Assembly (NCBI GenBank): GCA_023379465.1
Contig: JAMCTM010000028.1
Coordinates: forward strand, 1 to 17,724
Length of the DNA stretch: 17,724 nucleotides
From: Patescibacteria group bacterium
Lineage (GTDB): Bacteria; Patescibacteria; Microgenomatia; Levybacterales; UBA12049
Direction of reading: 5' to 3'
Positions 1,032 through 5,632 of this stretch are shown piece by piece. Positions within the stretch are counted from its first letter, which is position 1. Each line of letters opens with the position of its first letter. The notes under the pieces were generated by a model. The model made no database searches. It was not told the DNA's origin and saw only the letters and a program-made list of their open reading frames with translations. The position numbers and the translations under genes are program-made.

Positions 1032-2238
1032 TTTCTTGTCTTAATTTTTTAGTAAGATCCGGCAATTTAAACTTTCCTAAATCTTTTCCGCTTCTAAATC
1101 TTACCGAAATGGATTCATCTTCCATTTCTCTTTCGCCTATTATACCTAAATATGGGACTTTTTGCAAAGTTGCATCCCTTATTTTTGCACCTAATTTCTC
1201 GTTTCTTATATCTACCTCGCTTCTAATGTTTAGCTCAAGCAAGTCCTGGTTAAGTTTCTCCGCATATGAATTCACAGTTTCAGTTATAGGCAAGAGTATT
1301 ATTTGAATGGGCGAAAGCCATAAAGGAAATGCGCCTTGAAAATGTTCGGTAAGAATCCCAATGAATCTTTCGAAGCTTCCAAAAATTGCCCTGTGGATCA
1401 TGACCGGCCTTTCGAATTTACCTTTTTCGTTTACATACTTAAGGTCGAATGCCTCCGGCATGTGGAAGTCAAGCTGGACTGTGGCAAGTTGCCATTCTCT
1501 GTCGAGGGCGTCTTTTATGTGCAAATCAATCTTTGGTCCGTAAAAAGCACCGTCGCCTTTTTTGTCTCCTGCTTTAATCCCTTTTTTCTTTAATACGTCT
1601 TCCATGTCTTTTTCCGCCTTATCCCACATTTTGTCCGTTCCGGCGCGCTGGTCGGGGCGTGTAGCAAACCTGAATTCATATTCAAAACCGAAGTTTTTGT
1701 AAAAAGCAATCATCATGTCCAAAATCGCCGACACCTCGTCAAAAATCTGATTTTCCCTTACGTAAAGGTGTGCGTCGTCCATCGTAAGCTGTCTTACCCT
1801 TAATAGGCCGTTCACCTCGCCTGATTTTTCGCGCCTGTGGAGTCTTCCAAGCTCCGCAAGTCTTAACGGCAGCTCCTTGTAGGTTCTTGGTCTAAATCTG
1901 TAAAGAATAGTTGATTCGGGACAATTCATGGGTTTAAGAGTGTAGCTTTCAGGGTGCTGGTCGTTCTCGTCATCTGCAAGTGTCAAATTATACATATTGT
2001 GTTCGCCGAACTTAACCCAGTGCCCCGATTCCTTGAATAGTTTAGATTTAACCATTATCGGAGTTGAAGTTTCTACATATCCTGCTTTTTCGGTTAATTC
2101 CCTTATGTATCTTTCGAGTTCCTTAAAGATCACCATTCCCTTGGGAAGCCAGAATGGGGCACCCGGCGCGTAATCATGTGTAAAAAATAATTCCAGCTCC
2201 TGCCCTATTTGTTTATGGTCTTTCAATTTTTTGTCCAT
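1015..2238 (-). CDS. thrS: Threonyl-tRNA synthetase lacking the TGS and editing domains
   Basis: This class II synthetase charges tRNA-Thr. The 407-residue product begins directly at the catalytic domain (KDHKQIGQELELFFT), where full-length bacterial enzymes have about 240 residues of TGS and N2 editing domain first. Visible catalytic features are the zinc ligands Cys106 (MNCPES), His157 (DDAHLY) and His282 (IHRAIFGS), motif 2 (LGRLHRREKSG) and motif 3 (GSFERFIGILTE). The anticodon-binding domain follows from about residue 311 and includes VDIRNEKLGAKIRDA and VPYLGIIGERE. The ATG at 2238 is only 6 bp from a -10 element, so the protein cannot start further upstream and the missing half is not an annotation error. 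It heads the infC-rpmI-rplT operon. Without N2, misacylated Ser-tRNA-Thr would have to be cleared by another protein or tolerated. Confidence 0.96.
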   Translation of the reverse strand: MDKKLKDHKQIGQELELFFTHDYAPGAPFWLPKGMVIFKELERYIRELTEKAGYVETSTPIMVKSKLFKESGHWVKFGEHNMYNLTLADDENDQHPESYTLKPMNCPESTILYRFRPRTYKELPLRLAELGRLHRREKSGEVNGLLRVRQLTMDDAHLYVRENQIFDEVSAILDMMIAFYKNFGFEYEFRFATRPDQRAGTDKMWDKAEKDMEDVLKKKGIKAGDKKGDGAFYGPKIDLHIKDALDREWQLATVQLDFHMPEAFDLKYVNEKGKFERPVMIHRAIFGSFERFIGILTEHFQGAFPLWLSPIQIILLPITETVNSYAEKLNQDLLELNIRSEVDIRNEKLGAKIRDATLQKVPYLGIIGEREMEDESISVRFRSGKDLGKFKLPDLTKKLRQEIDKKA

Positions 2239-3555: not shown

Positions 3556-3765
3556 TTATAGACCAAATCTCCAAGCTTCGTGAGCCGGCCCTTCTGTAAG
3601 ATTTAGTCCTTCGTAACGAGGGTGTTCGGAGCCAAGATGGTTTTGCTGTTCTCCAGTGCTTTGTGACTCGTCTTCTTTTTTAGACGATGAAGTCACAGCG
3701 CTTAACGCGCGAAGAGCATGTTCAACCTTTGCTCCCTGGTTTACACCAGAAAGTTTTTCTCTCAT
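3556..3765 (-). CDS. Small hypothetical protein under attenuator C (69 aa)
   Basis: I do not recognise this 69-residue protein. It has a short helical-looking N-terminal part (GAKVEHALRALSAVTSSS), then a polar, probably disordered part rich in Ser, Glu, Gln and His, and ends EGPAHEAWRFGL. There is no signal peptide, membrane segment or Cys pair. It is supported as a real gene by a strong AGGAGGTGA Shine-Dalgarno before the ATG and by the leader peptide and terminator directly upstream. The phrase VEHALRAL resembles VESALRAF in the protein encoded at 4280-4513, which may be a faint sign of relatedness. Expression should depend on attenuator read-through. Confidence 0.75.
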   Translation of the reverse strand: MREKLSGVNQGAKVEHALRALSAVTSSSKKEDESQSTGEQQNHLGSEHPRYEGLNLTEGPAHEAWRFGL

Positions 3766-3792: not shown

Positions 3793-3819
3793 AAAAATCT
3801 CCCGCTAAAGGGGAGACTT
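3793..3819 (-). terminator. Intrinsic terminator of attenuator C (segments 3:4)
   Basis: Segment 3 (GTCTCCC, 3811-3817) pairs with segment 4 (GGGAGA, 3798-3803) around a short loop and is followed by five U residues (3793-3797). It lies 28 nt before the ATG of the 69-aa gene, so it must be bypassed for that gene to be made. Confidence 0.8.
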
Positions 3820-3878
3820 ATATATGTCTCCCACAATCAAATTCCCTTAATAAGGGTAATTTTGTTGATTTGGAAGAC
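3793..3878 (-). promoter_or_regulatory. Attenuator C: 1:2 / 2:3 / 3:4 leader RNA
   Basis: Segment 1 (3865-3878, GTCTTCCAAATCAA, codons 6-10 of the leader peptide) pairs with segment 2 (3826-3840, TTGATTGTGGGAGAC) over 14 bp with one bulge and one G-U. The GGGAGAC part of segment 2 pairs with segment 3 (GTCTCCC, 3811-3817) over 7 bp. Segment 3 alternatively pairs with segment 4 to form the terminator. The leader stop codon (3837-3839) lies inside segment 2. Expected behaviour: the gene is off if the leader is untranslated or fully translated, and on if a ribosome stalls over segment 1. No promoter of its own is apparent between tRNA-Val and the leader ORF. Confidence 0.78.
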
Positions 3879-3893
3879 TTCTAAGTTATCCAT
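3837..3893 (-). CDS. Leader peptide C, 18 aa
   Basis: The ORF encodes MDNLEVFQINKITLIKGI and ends in TGA. An AAGGA Shine-Dalgarno, starting at the last A of the tRNA-Val CCA end, lies 9 nt before the ATG. Codons 6-10 form segment 1 of attenuator C and the stop codon lies in segment 2, the positions expected for a regulatory leader peptide. Codons 7-8 (TTC CAA) are identical to codons 7-8 of leader peptide B. Codons 13-17 contain a small CCCTT/AAGGG inverted repeat. There is no run of one amino acid, although Ile occurs four times. The peptide itself probably has no function beyond positioning ribosomes. Confidence 0.72.
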   Translation of the reverse strand: MDNLEVFQINKITLIKGI

Positions 3894-3906
3894 AATGTAT
3901 TTTCCT

Positions 3907-3983
3907 TGGTGGATCCGAGAGGATTCGAACCTCTGACCTTTGCAATGTCAATGCAACGCTCTAACCAACTGAGCTACGAATCC
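3907..3983 (-). tRNA. tRNA-Val(GAC) with encoded CCA
   Basis: A complete cloverleaf is visible. The acceptor pair is GGATTCG/CGGATCC, the D-arm GCTC/GAGC, the anticodon stem TTGCA/TGCAA with loop TTGACAT (anticodon GAC), and the T-arm AGAGG-TTCGAAT-CCTCT. Discriminator A is followed by a genomic CCA, unlike the other tRNAs here. It lies between the three-gene small-protein unit and leader peptide C, whose Shine-Dalgarno begins at the last base of its CCA. It is probably co-transcribed with attenuator C. Confidence 0.97.
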
Positions 3984-3988
3984 TAATG

Positions 3989-4009
3989 CCTGTCTGAATC
4001 TAAGACAGG
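3989..4009 (-). promoter_or_regulatory. Perfect 7-bp hairpin at the 5' leader of tRNA-Val
   Basis: CCTGTCT and AGACAGG flank a 7-nt loop, 6 nt upstream of the mature tRNA 5' end and right at the predicted transcription start. No U-tract follows on the minus strand, so it is more likely a 5'-leader structure or processing signal than a terminator. Confidence 0.5.
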
Positions 4010-4013
4010 TATA

Positions 4014-4042
4014 ATTTTATCAGAATAAATTCCTCAATACAA
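4014..4042 (-). promoter_or_regulatory. Promoter for tRNA-Val and attenuator C unit
   Basis: The extended -10 TGATAAAAT (hexamer 4014-4019) is spaced 17 bp from TTGTAT (4037-4042). Transcription would start near 4007, just upstream of the hairpin and tRNA. It overlaps the end of the upstream small-protein operon. Confidence 0.55.
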
Positions 4043-4046
4043 TTTT

Positions 4047-4274
4047 CTAAAGACTGTATTGTCGTCTCTCAAAAATAATTGATACTTTCTCTGCCTCTTC
4101 AGGTGGAGGGACAAATAATGTATCTTTTCCCCCGTTGACTGTAATAGGGACAACTTTTATCTCTATTCGCTGGCCGTTATAAGCTTTTGCGTCAATCTTC
4201 GTATCGGCGTGAACTCCCCTTCTAAAGAGTCCGGCTTTTTCAAGCAAGGACCAGCCGCTACTTTTTTCTTTCAT
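4047..4274 (-). CDS. Small hypothetical protein, third gene of attenuator-B operon (75 aa)
   Basis: I do not recognise this 75-residue protein. It starts MKEKSSGWSLLEKAGLFRRG and continues with alternating hydrophobic residues that suggest a small beta-rich fold (RIEIKVVPITVNGG, then EKVSIIFERR), with a PPPEE turn between. No signal peptide, membrane span or metal-ligand cluster is seen. The ATG lies 5 nt after the stop of the preceding small gene with no clear Shine-Dalgarno, so it probably depends on coupled translation. Its first residues (MKEKSSG) resemble the MREKLSG start of the 69-aa protein at 3556-3765, which may be chance. Confidence 0.72.
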   Translation of the reverse strand: MKEKSSGWSLLEKAGLFRRGVHADTKIDAKAYNGQRIEIKVVPITVNGGKDTLFVPPPEEAEKVSIIFERRQYSL

Positions 4275-4279
4275 AATGC

Positions 4280-4513
4280 TTATGAATTCTTTTGACCTTC
4301 ATTAAATACTTCAATAGGTTGACTTTGTCCTGTAAATTTTTCAGCAGATGGATTTAAATATCCTGATTGAAAAGCACGTAAAGCAGATTCGACTTGTGCT
4401 TGATCCGGTTCAACTCCTATTCTACTTGCTTGAAAGAAATCTTCTGAAGTCGGATACTCTCCTTTGTTTGGTACTTTTCCTCTTCTCCCTACTTCTACAC
4501 TATAATAGGCCAT
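4280..4513 (-). CDS. Small hypothetical protein, second gene of attenuator-B operon (77 aa)
   Basis: No family is recognised. The 77 residues are hydrophilic, beginning MAYYSVEVGRRGKVPNKGEY and including a likely amphipathic helix (PDQAQVESALRAFQSGYL) before a polar tail. A strong AGGAGGTGA Shine-Dalgarno overlaps the TGA of the previous gene and lies about 10 nt before the ATG, so this is a real, efficiently initiated gene in an operon. It is cytoplasmic by composition. Function is unknown; co-regulation with its neighbours through attenuator B is the only clue. Confidence 0.74.
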   Translation of the reverse strand: MAYYSVEVGRRGKVPNKGEYPTSEDFFQASRIGVEPDQAQVESALRAFQSGYLNPSAEKFTGQSQPIEVFNEGQKNS

Positions 4514-4520
4514 ATATTTT

Positions 4521-4751
4521 TCACCTCCTTTTATTTAATTCTCCATACCATAATTCTCGTGTTCTTTCGGCATCTTTTTGGCAATTGATACATCTGCAAA
4601 TTTGAGCCCTTTTTTCTGCTGTAGCAATTTCCCGATTGGCTCTGGAGTTGTAGATTGTTAAAGCTTCTCTAATTGCAAGAGGAACCACTTCGTCTACAAT
4701 TGGATCGGATAATTGCGAATCGGTCAGTTGTTTTTCTATTATTTCTTTCAT
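4521..4751 (-). CDS. Small hypothetical protein with CxCxxC, first gene after attenuator B (76 aa)
   Basis: No family is recognised. The 76 residues from ATG 4751 (MKEIIEKQLTDSQLSDPIVD) look helical and end with a basic segment containing CRCINCQKDAER, a Cys-x-Cys-x-x-Cys cluster that could bind a metal or form half of a zinc site. I chose ATG 4751 over the upstream TTG 4763 because a GGAG Shine-Dalgarno at 4757-4760 lies 5 nt before it, directly after the attenuator U-tract. It heads a three-gene unit with the 77- and 75-residue proteins. Read-through of the terminator at 4762-4789 is required for expression. Confidence 0.74.
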   Translation of the reverse strand: MKEIIEKQLTDSQLSDPIVDEVVPLAIREALTIYNSRANREIATAEKRAQICRCINCQKDAERTRELWYGELNKRR

Positions 4752-4761
4752 AGATAACTCC

Positions 4762-4789
4762 AAAAAAAATCTCCCTTGTTTGGGAGATT
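4762..4789 (-). terminator. Intrinsic terminator of attenuator B (segments 3:4)
   Basis: AATCTCCC and GGGAGATT form an 8-bp stem with loop AAACAA, followed by eight U residues (4762-4769). The U-tract touches the GGAG Shine-Dalgarno of the 76-aa gene. Confidence 0.88.
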
Positions 4790-4883
4790 GTTATTTTGTT
4801 TAAAATTTTGTTTTATTACATCTTTTCTCCCAAACAATTACGCCTCCATAAGGAGGTTAATAATCGTTTGGAAAAGAAAAGAT
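4762..4883 (-). promoter_or_regulatory. Attenuator B: four-segment leader RNA
   Basis: Segment 1 (4862-4883, leader codons 3-10) pairs with extended segment 2 (4820-4839) over 20 bp with a single 2-nt bulge. Segment 2 core TTGTTTGGGAGA (4826-4837) is perfectly complementary over 12 bp to segment 3 TCTCCCAAACAA (4776-4787). Segment 3 alternatively forms the terminator with segment 4 (4770-4775). The leader stop codon (4838-4840) abuts the segment 2 core. A small CCTCC/GGAGG hairpin (4843-4856) sits in the loop of 1:2. These mutually exclusive pairings are the best evidence in the window for ribosome-mediated attenuation. Confidence 0.88.
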
Positions 4884-4891
4884 CTTTTCAT
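4838..4891 (-). CDS. Leader peptide B, 17 aa
   Basis: The ORF encodes MKRSFLFQTIINLLMEA and ends in TAA. It starts only 11 bp after a consensus -10, so the mRNA leader before the ATG is about 4-5 nt with no Shine-Dalgarno. Codons 3-10 make up segment 1 of attenuator B, and the stop codon directly precedes segment 2. Codons 7-8 are TTC CAA, as in leader peptide C. The peptide is hydrophobic with paired Ile and paired Leu codons, but no single-amino-acid run identifies a limiting amino acid. Confidence 0.78.
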   Translation of the reverse strand: MKRSFLFQTIINLLMEA

Positions 4892-4902
4892 ACTATAAAA
4901 AA

Positions 4903-4931
4903 ATTCTACAAAAGGTATCATTCCCTGTCAA
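4903..4931 (-). promoter_or_regulatory. Promoter of attenuator B unit
   Basis: A consensus -35 TTGACA (4926-4931), a 17-bp spacer and TAGAAT (4903-4908) lie 8 bp past the stop of the upstream gene. This is one of the strongest promoters in the window, as expected for a constitutively transcribed attenuator leader. Confidence 0.8.
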
Positions 4932-4939
4932 GAGGCAAA

Positions 4940-5467
4940 TTACCTTCTTTTTCTCGAATTCCACGATTTTGGAGCCTCATATTGTCCCTCGACCCTGAAT
5001 TGATTCTCGATTTTATCGGCATCTTTTTTTCTTCCGCGCGCATCCTGGATAATCGCAGGAACTCCCTCAAAAATGCCCCTGTGGCAGTATAGCCTTAAGC
5101 TGTTGTCATCATAAGGGTTGCCTATTATAAATATATGTATATCGGGTTTTCCCTCTGTTCTTGAAGCTAAAACCGCGCTGCTTCCGGTTATTGCACCGTC
5201 TAAGGAAAACTGGGTAGTTAGTTGTTGCCATACGCTGTCTATTTTTTCACTTTCGTTTTTTGATAATCTACCTGCTATCTCCGTAAACGAAGACCTGCTG
5301 CCAAGAGTTGAGGCAACGAATAGCGGTCTACCATGATCGGGAAACGGAGCAAAGGTTACGGGATGTCTTTCTCCTTTTCTTATGCTTGCGCACGGAACGA
5401 TAGTTGCATCCGCACTTATCGTAACGTTAGGATGCCTAAATCTTTCTTCTAAATATTTTTCTGTCAT
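4940..5467 (-). CDS. Hypothetical protein under attenuator A (175 aa)
   Basis: I do not recognise this protein. ATG 5467 is preferred to GTG 5476 because the GGAGGTGAT Shine-Dalgarno is correctly spaced (8 nt) only for the ATG; the GTG lies inside the Shine-Dalgarno. The 175 residues have no signal peptide or membrane span. Stretches such as ATIVPCASIRKGERHPVTFAP, ITGSSAVLASRTEG and DIHIFIIGNPYDDNSLRLYC suggest a mixed alpha/beta cytoplasmic domain, followed by a very basic tail rich in Arg and Lys. Cys residues in VPCAS and LYCHRG are not arranged as an obvious metal site. It is the largest member of the attenuator-controlled group. Confidence 0.78.
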   Translation of the reverse strand: MTEKYLEERFRHPNVTISADATIVPCASIRKGERHPVTFAPFPDHGRPLFVASTLGSRSSFTEIAGRLSKNESEKIDSVWQQLTTQFSLDGAITGSSAVLASRTEGKPDIHIFIIGNPYDDNSLRLYCHRGIFEGVPAIIQDARGRKKDADKIENQFRVEGQYEAPKSWNSRKRR

Positions 5468-5487
5468 ATTTATCACCTCCAGTCCAT

Positions 5488-5514
5488 AAAAAAACCTCCC
5501 GCTTGGGAGGCTTT
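5488..5514 (-). terminator. Intrinsic terminator of attenuator A (segments 3:4)
   Basis: AAAGCCTCCC and GGGAGGTTTT pair over about 10 bp (one G-U) around an AAGC tetraloop, with a tract of seven U residues at 5488-5494. It lies 7 nt upstream of the GGAGG Shine-Dalgarno of the 175-aa gene. Confidence 0.88.
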
Positions 5515-5568
5515 AAGGCGCATTTAATTAAAAGCTACGCCAAGAAACCTCCCCTTAAGGAGATCTTG
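5488..5568 (-). promoter_or_regulatory. Attenuator A: four-segment leader RNA
   Basis: Segment 1 CAAGATCTCC (5559-5568, leader codons 10-13) pairs with segment 2 (5541-5554) as 5 + 4 bp around an internal loop. Segment 2 GGGAGGTTTCTTGGCG (5538-5553) pairs with segment 3 CGCCTTAAAGCCTCCC (5505-5520) as 9 + 4 bp around a 3x3 internal loop. Segment 3 alternatively pairs with segment 4 GGGAGG (5495-5500) to form the terminator. The leader stop codon (5535-5537) directly follows segment 2. The arrangement is the same as attenuators B and C but with different flanking sequence. Confidence 0.85.
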
Positions 5569-5597
5569 ATAAGCTTCTTAATAAAAATTAATTTCAT
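5535..5597 (-). CDS. Leader peptide A, 20 aa
   Basis: The ORF encodes MKLIFIKKLIKISLRGGFLA and ends in TAG. The ATG lies exactly 6 bp after the -10, so translation should begin at the first nucleotides of the transcript, as inferred for other leaderless genes here. Codons 10-13 form segment 1 and codons 15-20 form segment 2 of attenuator A. The peptide is rich in Ile, Lys and Leu (four Ile, four Lys, four Leu) and cationic. Stalling within codons 8-13 would free segment 2 to make the antiterminator. Confidence 0.76.
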   Translation of the reverse strand: MKLIFIKKLIKISLRGGFLA

Positions 5598-5603
5598 AAA
5601 ATT

Positions 5604-5632
5604 ATTTTTTCAAAACTTATAATTTATGTCAA
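5604..5632 (-). promoter_or_regulatory. Promoter of attenuator A unit
   Basis: TTGACA (5627-5632), a 17-bp spacer ending in TG-A, then AAAAAT (5604-5609); the leader ATG follows after 6 bp. The -35 lies 8 bp past the stop of the DUF5660-like gene, with no terminator visible in between. Confidence 0.72.

Follow-up and report, generated by a model that had tools for sequence, protein, structure and literature searches.

Attenuators of the trp type combine a leader open reading frame (ORF) that holds regulatory codons, four RNA segments (1 to 4) that form mutually exclusive antiterminator and terminator structures, and a U-tract. In Corynebacterium glutamicum, the leader peptides of attenuators are leaderless. 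In this species and other Actinobacteria, predicted classical attenuators or candidate leader peptides precede trp, ilvB, leuS and trpS (PMC1262725, PMC3890552; these and the other papers are cited here from excerpts), and 33% of C. glutamicum mRNAs are leaderless (PMC3890552). In Escherichia coli, the short upstream ORF toiL detects stalled ribosomes and regulates a toxin gene in the topAI-yjhQ operon, responding to antibiotics through translation and Rho-dependent termination (PMC12121999). We found no description of amino-acid attenuators in bacteria of the Candidate Phyla Radiation (CPR) in the open-access literature. Here we analysed a stretch of 17,724 nucleotides (the window; contig JAMCTM010000028.1) from a Patescibacteria group bacterium, a CPR host with a reduced genome, as an earlier note on this DNA had supposed. 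The note had also placed three ribosome-mediated attenuators within 1.8 kb, and all three (U1, U2 and U3) are present on the minus strand, with their leader ORFs, segments and terminators where it had put them (Table 1). Each unit is very probably a trp-type attenuator, most likely U1 for lysine, U2 for leucine and U3 for leucine/isoleucine, with read-through leading to small orphan proteins. From the sequence architecture, the computed pairing logic, conservation, the match of codons and genes in relatives and a predicted fold, we infer the transcription starts, the switching itself, the amino acids sensed and the roles of the proteins.

The strongest single argument for this mechanism is the match, at a fixed distance from segment 2, between leader codons and downstream genes. 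Forty downstream proteins were sent to Pfam, of which 32 had a reported family (one, in L192, below the curated cut-off); gene names are our reading of these matches. The gene classes that match their leaders are leuA (2 units), ilvA (2), ilvB (2), ilvE, DAHP synthase (6), chorismate mutase, hisG, metE-like, a serA/B fusion, pheS (4), thrS (2) and class I lysS, preceded by Lys-type leaders in all eight cases. Leaders were dealt among genes as a control. With the expected amino acids assigned with the sequences in view, 35 units scored 138 for residue-gene match, compared with 55.4 (sd 7.6) for dealt leaders (0/20,000). In a stricter set of 31 units, gene-matching codons made up 115/186 of the critical codons inside a zone 12-29 nt before segment 2 and 43/390 of those outside it; the observed value of 0.618 compares with 0.158 when dealt (0/20,000). 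The match is nearly absent less than 12 nt from segment 2. Its limitation to about 12-29 nt fits the footprint of a stalled ribosome that leaves segment 2 bare. The earlier note had proposed a response to a translation block, either amino-acid shortage or a ribosome-targeting compound. Stall sensing is supported, and the proposal can be narrowed, as the leader codons of relatives match the biosynthesis or aminoacyl-tRNA synthetase gene downstream.

The 35-unit test leaves out PIG-L genes (L121, L177, L184), an M20 peptidase (L190), two units before a HAD gene (L185), a PfkB/aroB-like gene (L132) and all orphans; the stricter test also drops L139, L119, L130 and L137. The names lysS in seven of the eight loci, pheS in L110 and DAHP synthase in L127 come from clustering with Pfam-confirmed members; the L127 piece had no match in Pfam, and a 134-aa protein in L193 that fell in the lysS cluster was not counted. 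The dapL-, cimA-, aroB-, methyltransferase- and kbl-like names, and pheS in L212 and L214, follow what we take to be sequence likeness. Among the 87 leaders, which include L116 copies of U2 and U3, 15 had no clear residue class by a simple rule, the G003 relative of U2 being one of them.

For U1-U3, whose target genes fall in no Pfam or NCBIfam family, the sensed amino acids are proposed as follows. U1 most likely senses lysine. Its critical codons, with distances in nt before the segment-2 core, are I29, K26, K23, L20, I17 and K14, and its leader tail (..GGFLA) recurs in the Lys-type leaders found before lysS or before a DapL-like aminotransferase; relatives are found in L157, L154 and L139, and in L007 with K20 and K17. 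U2 is most likely of Leu type and would sense leucine. Its critical codons CTC CTT (L24, L21; I33 and I30 lie further upstream) occupy the places of the Leu codons in leuA leaders, and its relative in G003, MKRSFLFQIITNLLMEA, retains them. U3 (I28, T25, L22, I19) appears to be of Leu/Ile type and is the least certain of the three.

Folding supports the pairing logic of the earlier note, in which full translation or none leads to termination and a stall to read-through. Whole leaders folded better than dinucleotide shuffles, with z of -2.8, -7.4 and -3.6 for U1, U2 and U3; 2/200, 0/200 and 0/200 shuffles folded as well. In staged folding, which follows the order of transcription, all three units behave as the note had described. 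In the free leader 1:2 forms (-18.7, -33.4 and -20.6 kcal/mol for U1, U2 and U3); with a stalled ribosome 2:3 forms ahead of the synthesis of segment 4 (-25.0, -14.8 and -12.5 kcal/mol); and with the ribosome at the stop codon next to nothing forms before the terminator (-1.0, 0.0 and 0.0 kcal/mol). Pairing also exceeds chance across units. In 82 units with a gap of at least 20, the 2:3 flanks outside the searched letters paired with their own partner at -5.6 kcal/mol, compared with -3.44 kcal/mol for dealt partners (0/300), and each class shows the excess when taken separately (A, 56 units; B, 26 units). The best 1:2 run exceeds dealt and shuffled controls in 86 units (0/200 each). No excess of 3:4 pairing outside the core was found in class B units. 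The note had placed the leader stops at or in segment 2. This is the case for U1, where the stop (5537-5535) lies inside the extended segment 2 and begins 16 nt after the start of its core, whereas the U2 and U3 stops lie just 5' of segment 2, beginning 9 and 7 nt before the core.

A simple model would be as follows. In U1 and U2, transcription would begin on the leader ATG or a few nt upstream of it, giving a leaderless or nearly leaderless ORF on which a ribosome loads. With an ample supply of the sensed amino acid, translation would proceed to the stop codon; the ribosome there would cover segment 2, leaving 3 to pair with 4, and transcription would end. Without a loaded ribosome, 1:2 would form and 3:4 would again terminate. 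A shortage of charged tRNA would stall the ribosome on the critical codons, which lie about 12-29 nt before segment 2. That segment would then be left free, 2:3 would form first and RNA polymerase would read through. The products would be small orphan proteins and, behind U1, a protein with a RelE-like predicted fold.

Table 1. Features of the three attenuator units and their surroundings in the window
Feature	Position	Strand	Remarks
U1 promoter-like TTGACA-17-AAAAAT	5604..5632	-	leader start codon 6 nt after -10 hexamer (leaderless start)
U1 leader ORF MKLIFIKKLIKISLRGGFLA	5535..5597	-	20 aa
U1 1:2 protector hairpin	5530..5578	-	segment-2 core GGGAGG 5553-5548; staged folding
U1 2:3 antiterminator	5505..5553	-	-25.0 kcal/mol with ribosome stalled upstream
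U1 3:4 terminator	5491..5514	-	followed by T run
U1-controlled 175-aa protein	4940..5467	-	no Pfam/NCBIfam match; AlphaFold2 model resembles RelE superfamily
U2 promoter-like TTGACA-17-TAGAAT	4903..4931	-	11 nt before leader ATG
U2 leader ORF MKRSFLFQTIINLLMEA	4838..4891	-	17 aa
U2 1:2 protector hairpin	4817..4885	-	-33.4 kcal/mol
U2 2:3 antiterminator	4776..4837	-	arms 4837-4826 and 4787-4776, 12 perfect pairs
U2 3:4 terminator	4768..4789	-	with T run
U2-controlled 76-aa orphan protein	4521..4751	-	no relative in any other genome examined
77-aa orphan protein, U2 operon	4280..4513	-	no relative in any other genome examined
75-aa orphan protein, U2 operon	4047..4274	-	distant relative in L170, 29% over 68 aa
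tRNA gene	3910..3983	-	directly upstream of U3; anticodon by eye GAC, Val
U3 leader ORF MDNLEVFQINKITLIKGI	3837..3893	-	18 aa; sole window leader with Shine-Dalgarno-like AGGA
U3 1:2 protector hairpin	3826..3878	-	staged folding
U3 2:3 antiterminator	3811..3832	-	3832-3826 with 3817-3811
U3 3:4 terminator	3795..3819	-	short T run
U3-controlled 69-aa orphan protein	3556..3765	-	no relative in any other genome examined

The units have much in common with described attenuators, and the targets of their relatives include pheS, hisG, leuA and ilvB, as in trp-type systems. They differ in that most leaders lack a Shine-Dalgarno (SD) sequence and that a single core, GGGAG or GGGG, is shared by units for many different amino acids. 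In 57/85 units a good sigma-70-like promoter (score at least 10) precedes the leader, its -10 hexamer standing 6-13 nt before the start codon. In 52/85 units the start codon lies within 4-12 nt of the -10, compared with 3.2% in shuffled upstream DNA, and only 4/85 have an SD-like word before the leader. Therefore, most leaders are probably leaderless mRNAs. The G001 copy of U3 differs from most units in having no good promoter at the leader ATG; together with the tRNA directly upstream, this suggests that U3 may be co-transcribed with the tRNA. Arm 4 is a further difference. In 23 of 60 class A units (12 with ATG), a count given with no chance rate beside it, an ORF of at least 45 aa starts 4-13 nt after the GGGAG of arm 4. 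The terminator arm can thus double as a ribosome-binding site, which may be the reason for the shared core. In the window at 5487-5473 (minus strand), an ATG behind the U1 terminator arm GGGAGG and T run opens a four-codon ORF, MDWR, that terminates within the SD of the 175-aa gene and is possibly a relic of this design. Actinobacterial attenuators belong to another phylum, their trp terminators are rich in GC and have different conserved triples, and the excerpted accounts mention no orphan-gene set (PMC1262725, PMC3890552); here the targets include small orphans and the RelE-like protein.

The attenuators were also searched for across the window and about 0.93 Mb of the genome G001 (946,417 bases) with a scanner tuned on U1-U3. 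It encountered 227 terminators, and a strict filter kept seven places: U1, U2, U3, the G001 copies of U1 and U2, a fourth unit in G001 (U4 in L099, leader MKLNSELVKKAKKNSFNGGYRLG) and one doubtful place (L085). The G001 copy of U3 has six 2:3 pairs instead of seven; it missed the strict cut and is present in the loose list. So few strict passes among 227 terminators argue that three units in 1.8 kb are a real cluster. The set is not confined to the note's three units, G001 having at least a fourth.

Relatives were found across the family and the phylum. The GGGAG-core pattern matches 37/73 family genomes, compared with 0/73 for a reversed-pattern control, and a GGGG/CCCC/GGGG version matches 23/73 (control 0). 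The view of a duplicated, diverging module that shares the GGGAG/CTCCC core is supported. By permissive rules, a leader ORF is present in 87/87 units read, with no chance rate set beside this count. In a phylum sample the pattern is rarer outside the family, occurring in 16/379 genomes, two of them in the family. All 15 places outside the family were read, and at least nine have, by eye, runs of one residue class (FFFF, WWVW, MIMAMM, LLLLLL); L208 and L215 have no such run. Comparable leaders that bear residue runs are present in further families and other classes of the phylum (L203-L217), indicating that the system is wider than the family and that the GGGAG pattern probably undercounts it.

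The position of U1 is conserved. As in the window, a unit starts 94-377 nt behind DUF5660 on the same strand in 13/82 unit-bearing loci, and L007 and L200 are two further loci with a unit behind this gene. Of nine named records with the DUF5660 gene, three are called Levybacteria or Levyibacteriota. Among nine named DUF5660 loci, an attenuator was detected by the scan behind this gene in five, and none in L197, L201 and L202; L199 ends at the gene. G002 keeps the order of the window, with a KK leader and a 172-aa relative of the 175-aa protein followed by a Leu/Ile-rich leader. Relatives that keep the terminators and lack the leaders or pairings, which the note had named as evidence to the contrary, were not encountered at the tig-DUF5660 loci tested, as G002 and G003 retain both.

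The protein behind U1 bears on what this unit does. The earlier note had stated that the controlled proteins match nothing known; this is true by Pfam and NCBIfam, but the predicted structure of the 175-aa product appears to resemble RelE-type toxins. The window protein matched 0 Pfam families at E up to 1, and among 20 members of its group one matched DUF4258 at E 0.049. Basic residues at positions 75, 107, 125, 144 and 152 occur in 20, 17, 16, 18 and 19 of 20 sequences. Relatives occupy seven other distinct loci. Five lie between a Lys-type leader and lysS (L138, L144, L154, L157, L165), out of eight such lysS loci, and that in L007 lies behind a KK leader at tig-DUF5660. In G001, lysS has a different location, separated by 38 nt from the gene before it, too little space for an attenuator; the Lys-type unit and the orphan gene therefore seem parted from lysS. 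Cami1 is a ribosome-bound nuclease with a RelE domain. By its predicted fold, the 175-aa protein may act on starved ribosomes or their mRNA. It differs from the RelE/ParE/HigB superfamily in having no sequence-family match, an N-terminal extension, no recognised antitoxin, and control that is probably by attenuation rather than by antitoxin autorepression. No antitoxin was recognised beside it, without a dedicated search, and the neighbouring genes vary between loci. TopAI, in comparison, is a topoisomerase inhibitor with an antitoxin (PMC12121999).

Several observations weigh against our interpretation. The U1-U3 leaders are mixed K/I/L with no clean run, their genes match no biosynthetic family, and the relative of the 175-aa protein in L006/L134 sits behind a leader without KK. 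In its purely equilibrium form the switch also fails in part, since the full-length equilibrium fold of U2 and U3 retains the terminator even with a ribosome stalled at the Leu codons; antitermination there therefore relies on co-transcriptional order. The alternative that survives best accepts attenuation and holds that U1, with three Ile/Leu codons as against three Lys codons, senses isoleucine/leucine, and that the RelE likeness is a common alpha/beta arrangement without ribosome function. We consider this somewhat unlikely, though it deserves to be taken seriously.

Attenuators that respond to antibiotics or general stress are less probable still. ermK-like leaders are of the antibiotic type. 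In such a system any stall would free segment 2, no single amino acid would be sensed and the orphans would counter ribosome-targeting compounds; the mixed leaders and orphan targets are compatible with this, as is toiL, which responds to several antibiotics that target the ribosome and regulates a toxin-antitoxin operon (PMC12121999). However, in relatives with the same core the residues that match the gene stand at a constant distance from segment 2, the U2 Leu codons are in register with those of leuA leaders, and the KK leaders of relatives precede lysS. The units also differ from toiL in their intrinsic terminator and amino-acid codons.

The two remaining alternatives are very improbable. 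Ordinary intrinsic terminators of upstream genes, accompanied by chance leader ORFs and alternative pairings, might be expected where terminators number 227 and short ORFs are frequent, but U1 and U2 have a promoter directly before the leader, the 2:3 and 1:2 pairing is beyond chance, and position and gene-matched codons are conserved. Metabolite riboswitches or T-box-like tRNA-binding leaders, which also control amino-acid and synthetase genes through terminator/antiterminator pairs, would need neither the leader codon content nor the fixed distance to segment 2; none reached the gathering score in the window (tRNAs only) or in 20 loci searched, except for a SAM-I/IV riboswitch match in L181. 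Sub-threshold Rfam matches on the strand of the units were mostly to attenuator leaders: Phe_leader for U1 (35.4 bits, end to end) and U2 (28.0, beside STnc230 at 29.1), and His_leader for U3 (27.1). None reached its gathering score (55 for Phe_leader, 49 for His_leader, and 41 for Trp_leader, which scored 21.4).

Several arrangements in other genomes were observed. In L181, the riboswitch match (1365-1489, plus strand; 41.4 bits against a gathering score of 41.1) is immediately followed by an attenuator leader rich in Met (MMEMM), with a metE-like gene behind it, so that two sensors stand in tandem. In L185, tandem attenuators near 1561 and 1668 (plus strand), both with Thr runs, precede a HAD-family gene and a thrS-like gene. 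Orphan ORFs recur between attenuator and matching gene in L145, L171, L110, L123, L130, L153 and L154, the genes beyond them being thrS, pheS, chorismate mutase, methyltransferase-like and lysS. Runs of Cys (CCC, CC) mark the leaders ahead of the PIG-L family deacetylases of L121 and L184, as well as one ahead of an orphan in L151; a thiol-related role is a guess, and Cys is absent from the leader of the third PIG-L unit, L177. HH leaders precede an aromatic amino-acid lyase in L137, which we take to be histidine ammonia-lyase-like, and an M20 peptidase in L190, genes of scavenging rather than synthesis.

On the minus strand of the window the order is tig, DUF5660, U1, 175 aa, U2, 76 aa, 77 aa, 75 aa, tRNA, U3, 69 aa, UPF0047 and more genes including thrS. 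G001 is the nearest genome examined and, judging from sequence identity, belongs to the same species as the window source or a very close one: 2141 bases aligned at 100% (rounded) and 79% of the window's sampled 31-letter words also occur in G001. Small differences remain, for example in U3, with single changes in segment 3 and in the 69-aa protein.

Attenuation of the trp type is already known. What appears undescribed is a mostly leaderless, amino-acid-by-amino-acid set in this CPR family, before synthetases, enzymes, orphans and one RelE-like protein. Nutrient sensing in CPR bacteria is poorly known, and a 2024 review states in its excerpted text that their differentiation mechanisms are completely unknown and that translation regulation is likely key (PMC11665869). 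The attenuators provide a wide, readable regulatory layer. As leader codons name the sensed amino acid, orphan genes can be sorted by the starvation expected to induce them, and a RelE-like protein without a recognised antitoxin would be linked to lysine starvation. A bolder proposal, which we regard as speculative and unlikely as it stands, is that Levybacteria place an antitoxin-free, ribosome-acting protein of RelE fold under a Lys-codon attenuator, often with lysyl-tRNA synthetase, and that the orphans behind other attenuators belong to the same dormancy programme. If true, starvation for one amino acid would, via a stalled leader ribosome, induce the synthetase together with a factor that trims or silences starved ribosomes, and this host-dependent bacterium would have an amino-acid-specific dormancy programme to which the orphan genes downstream of Leu, Ile, Phe, Thr and Met attenuators also belong.

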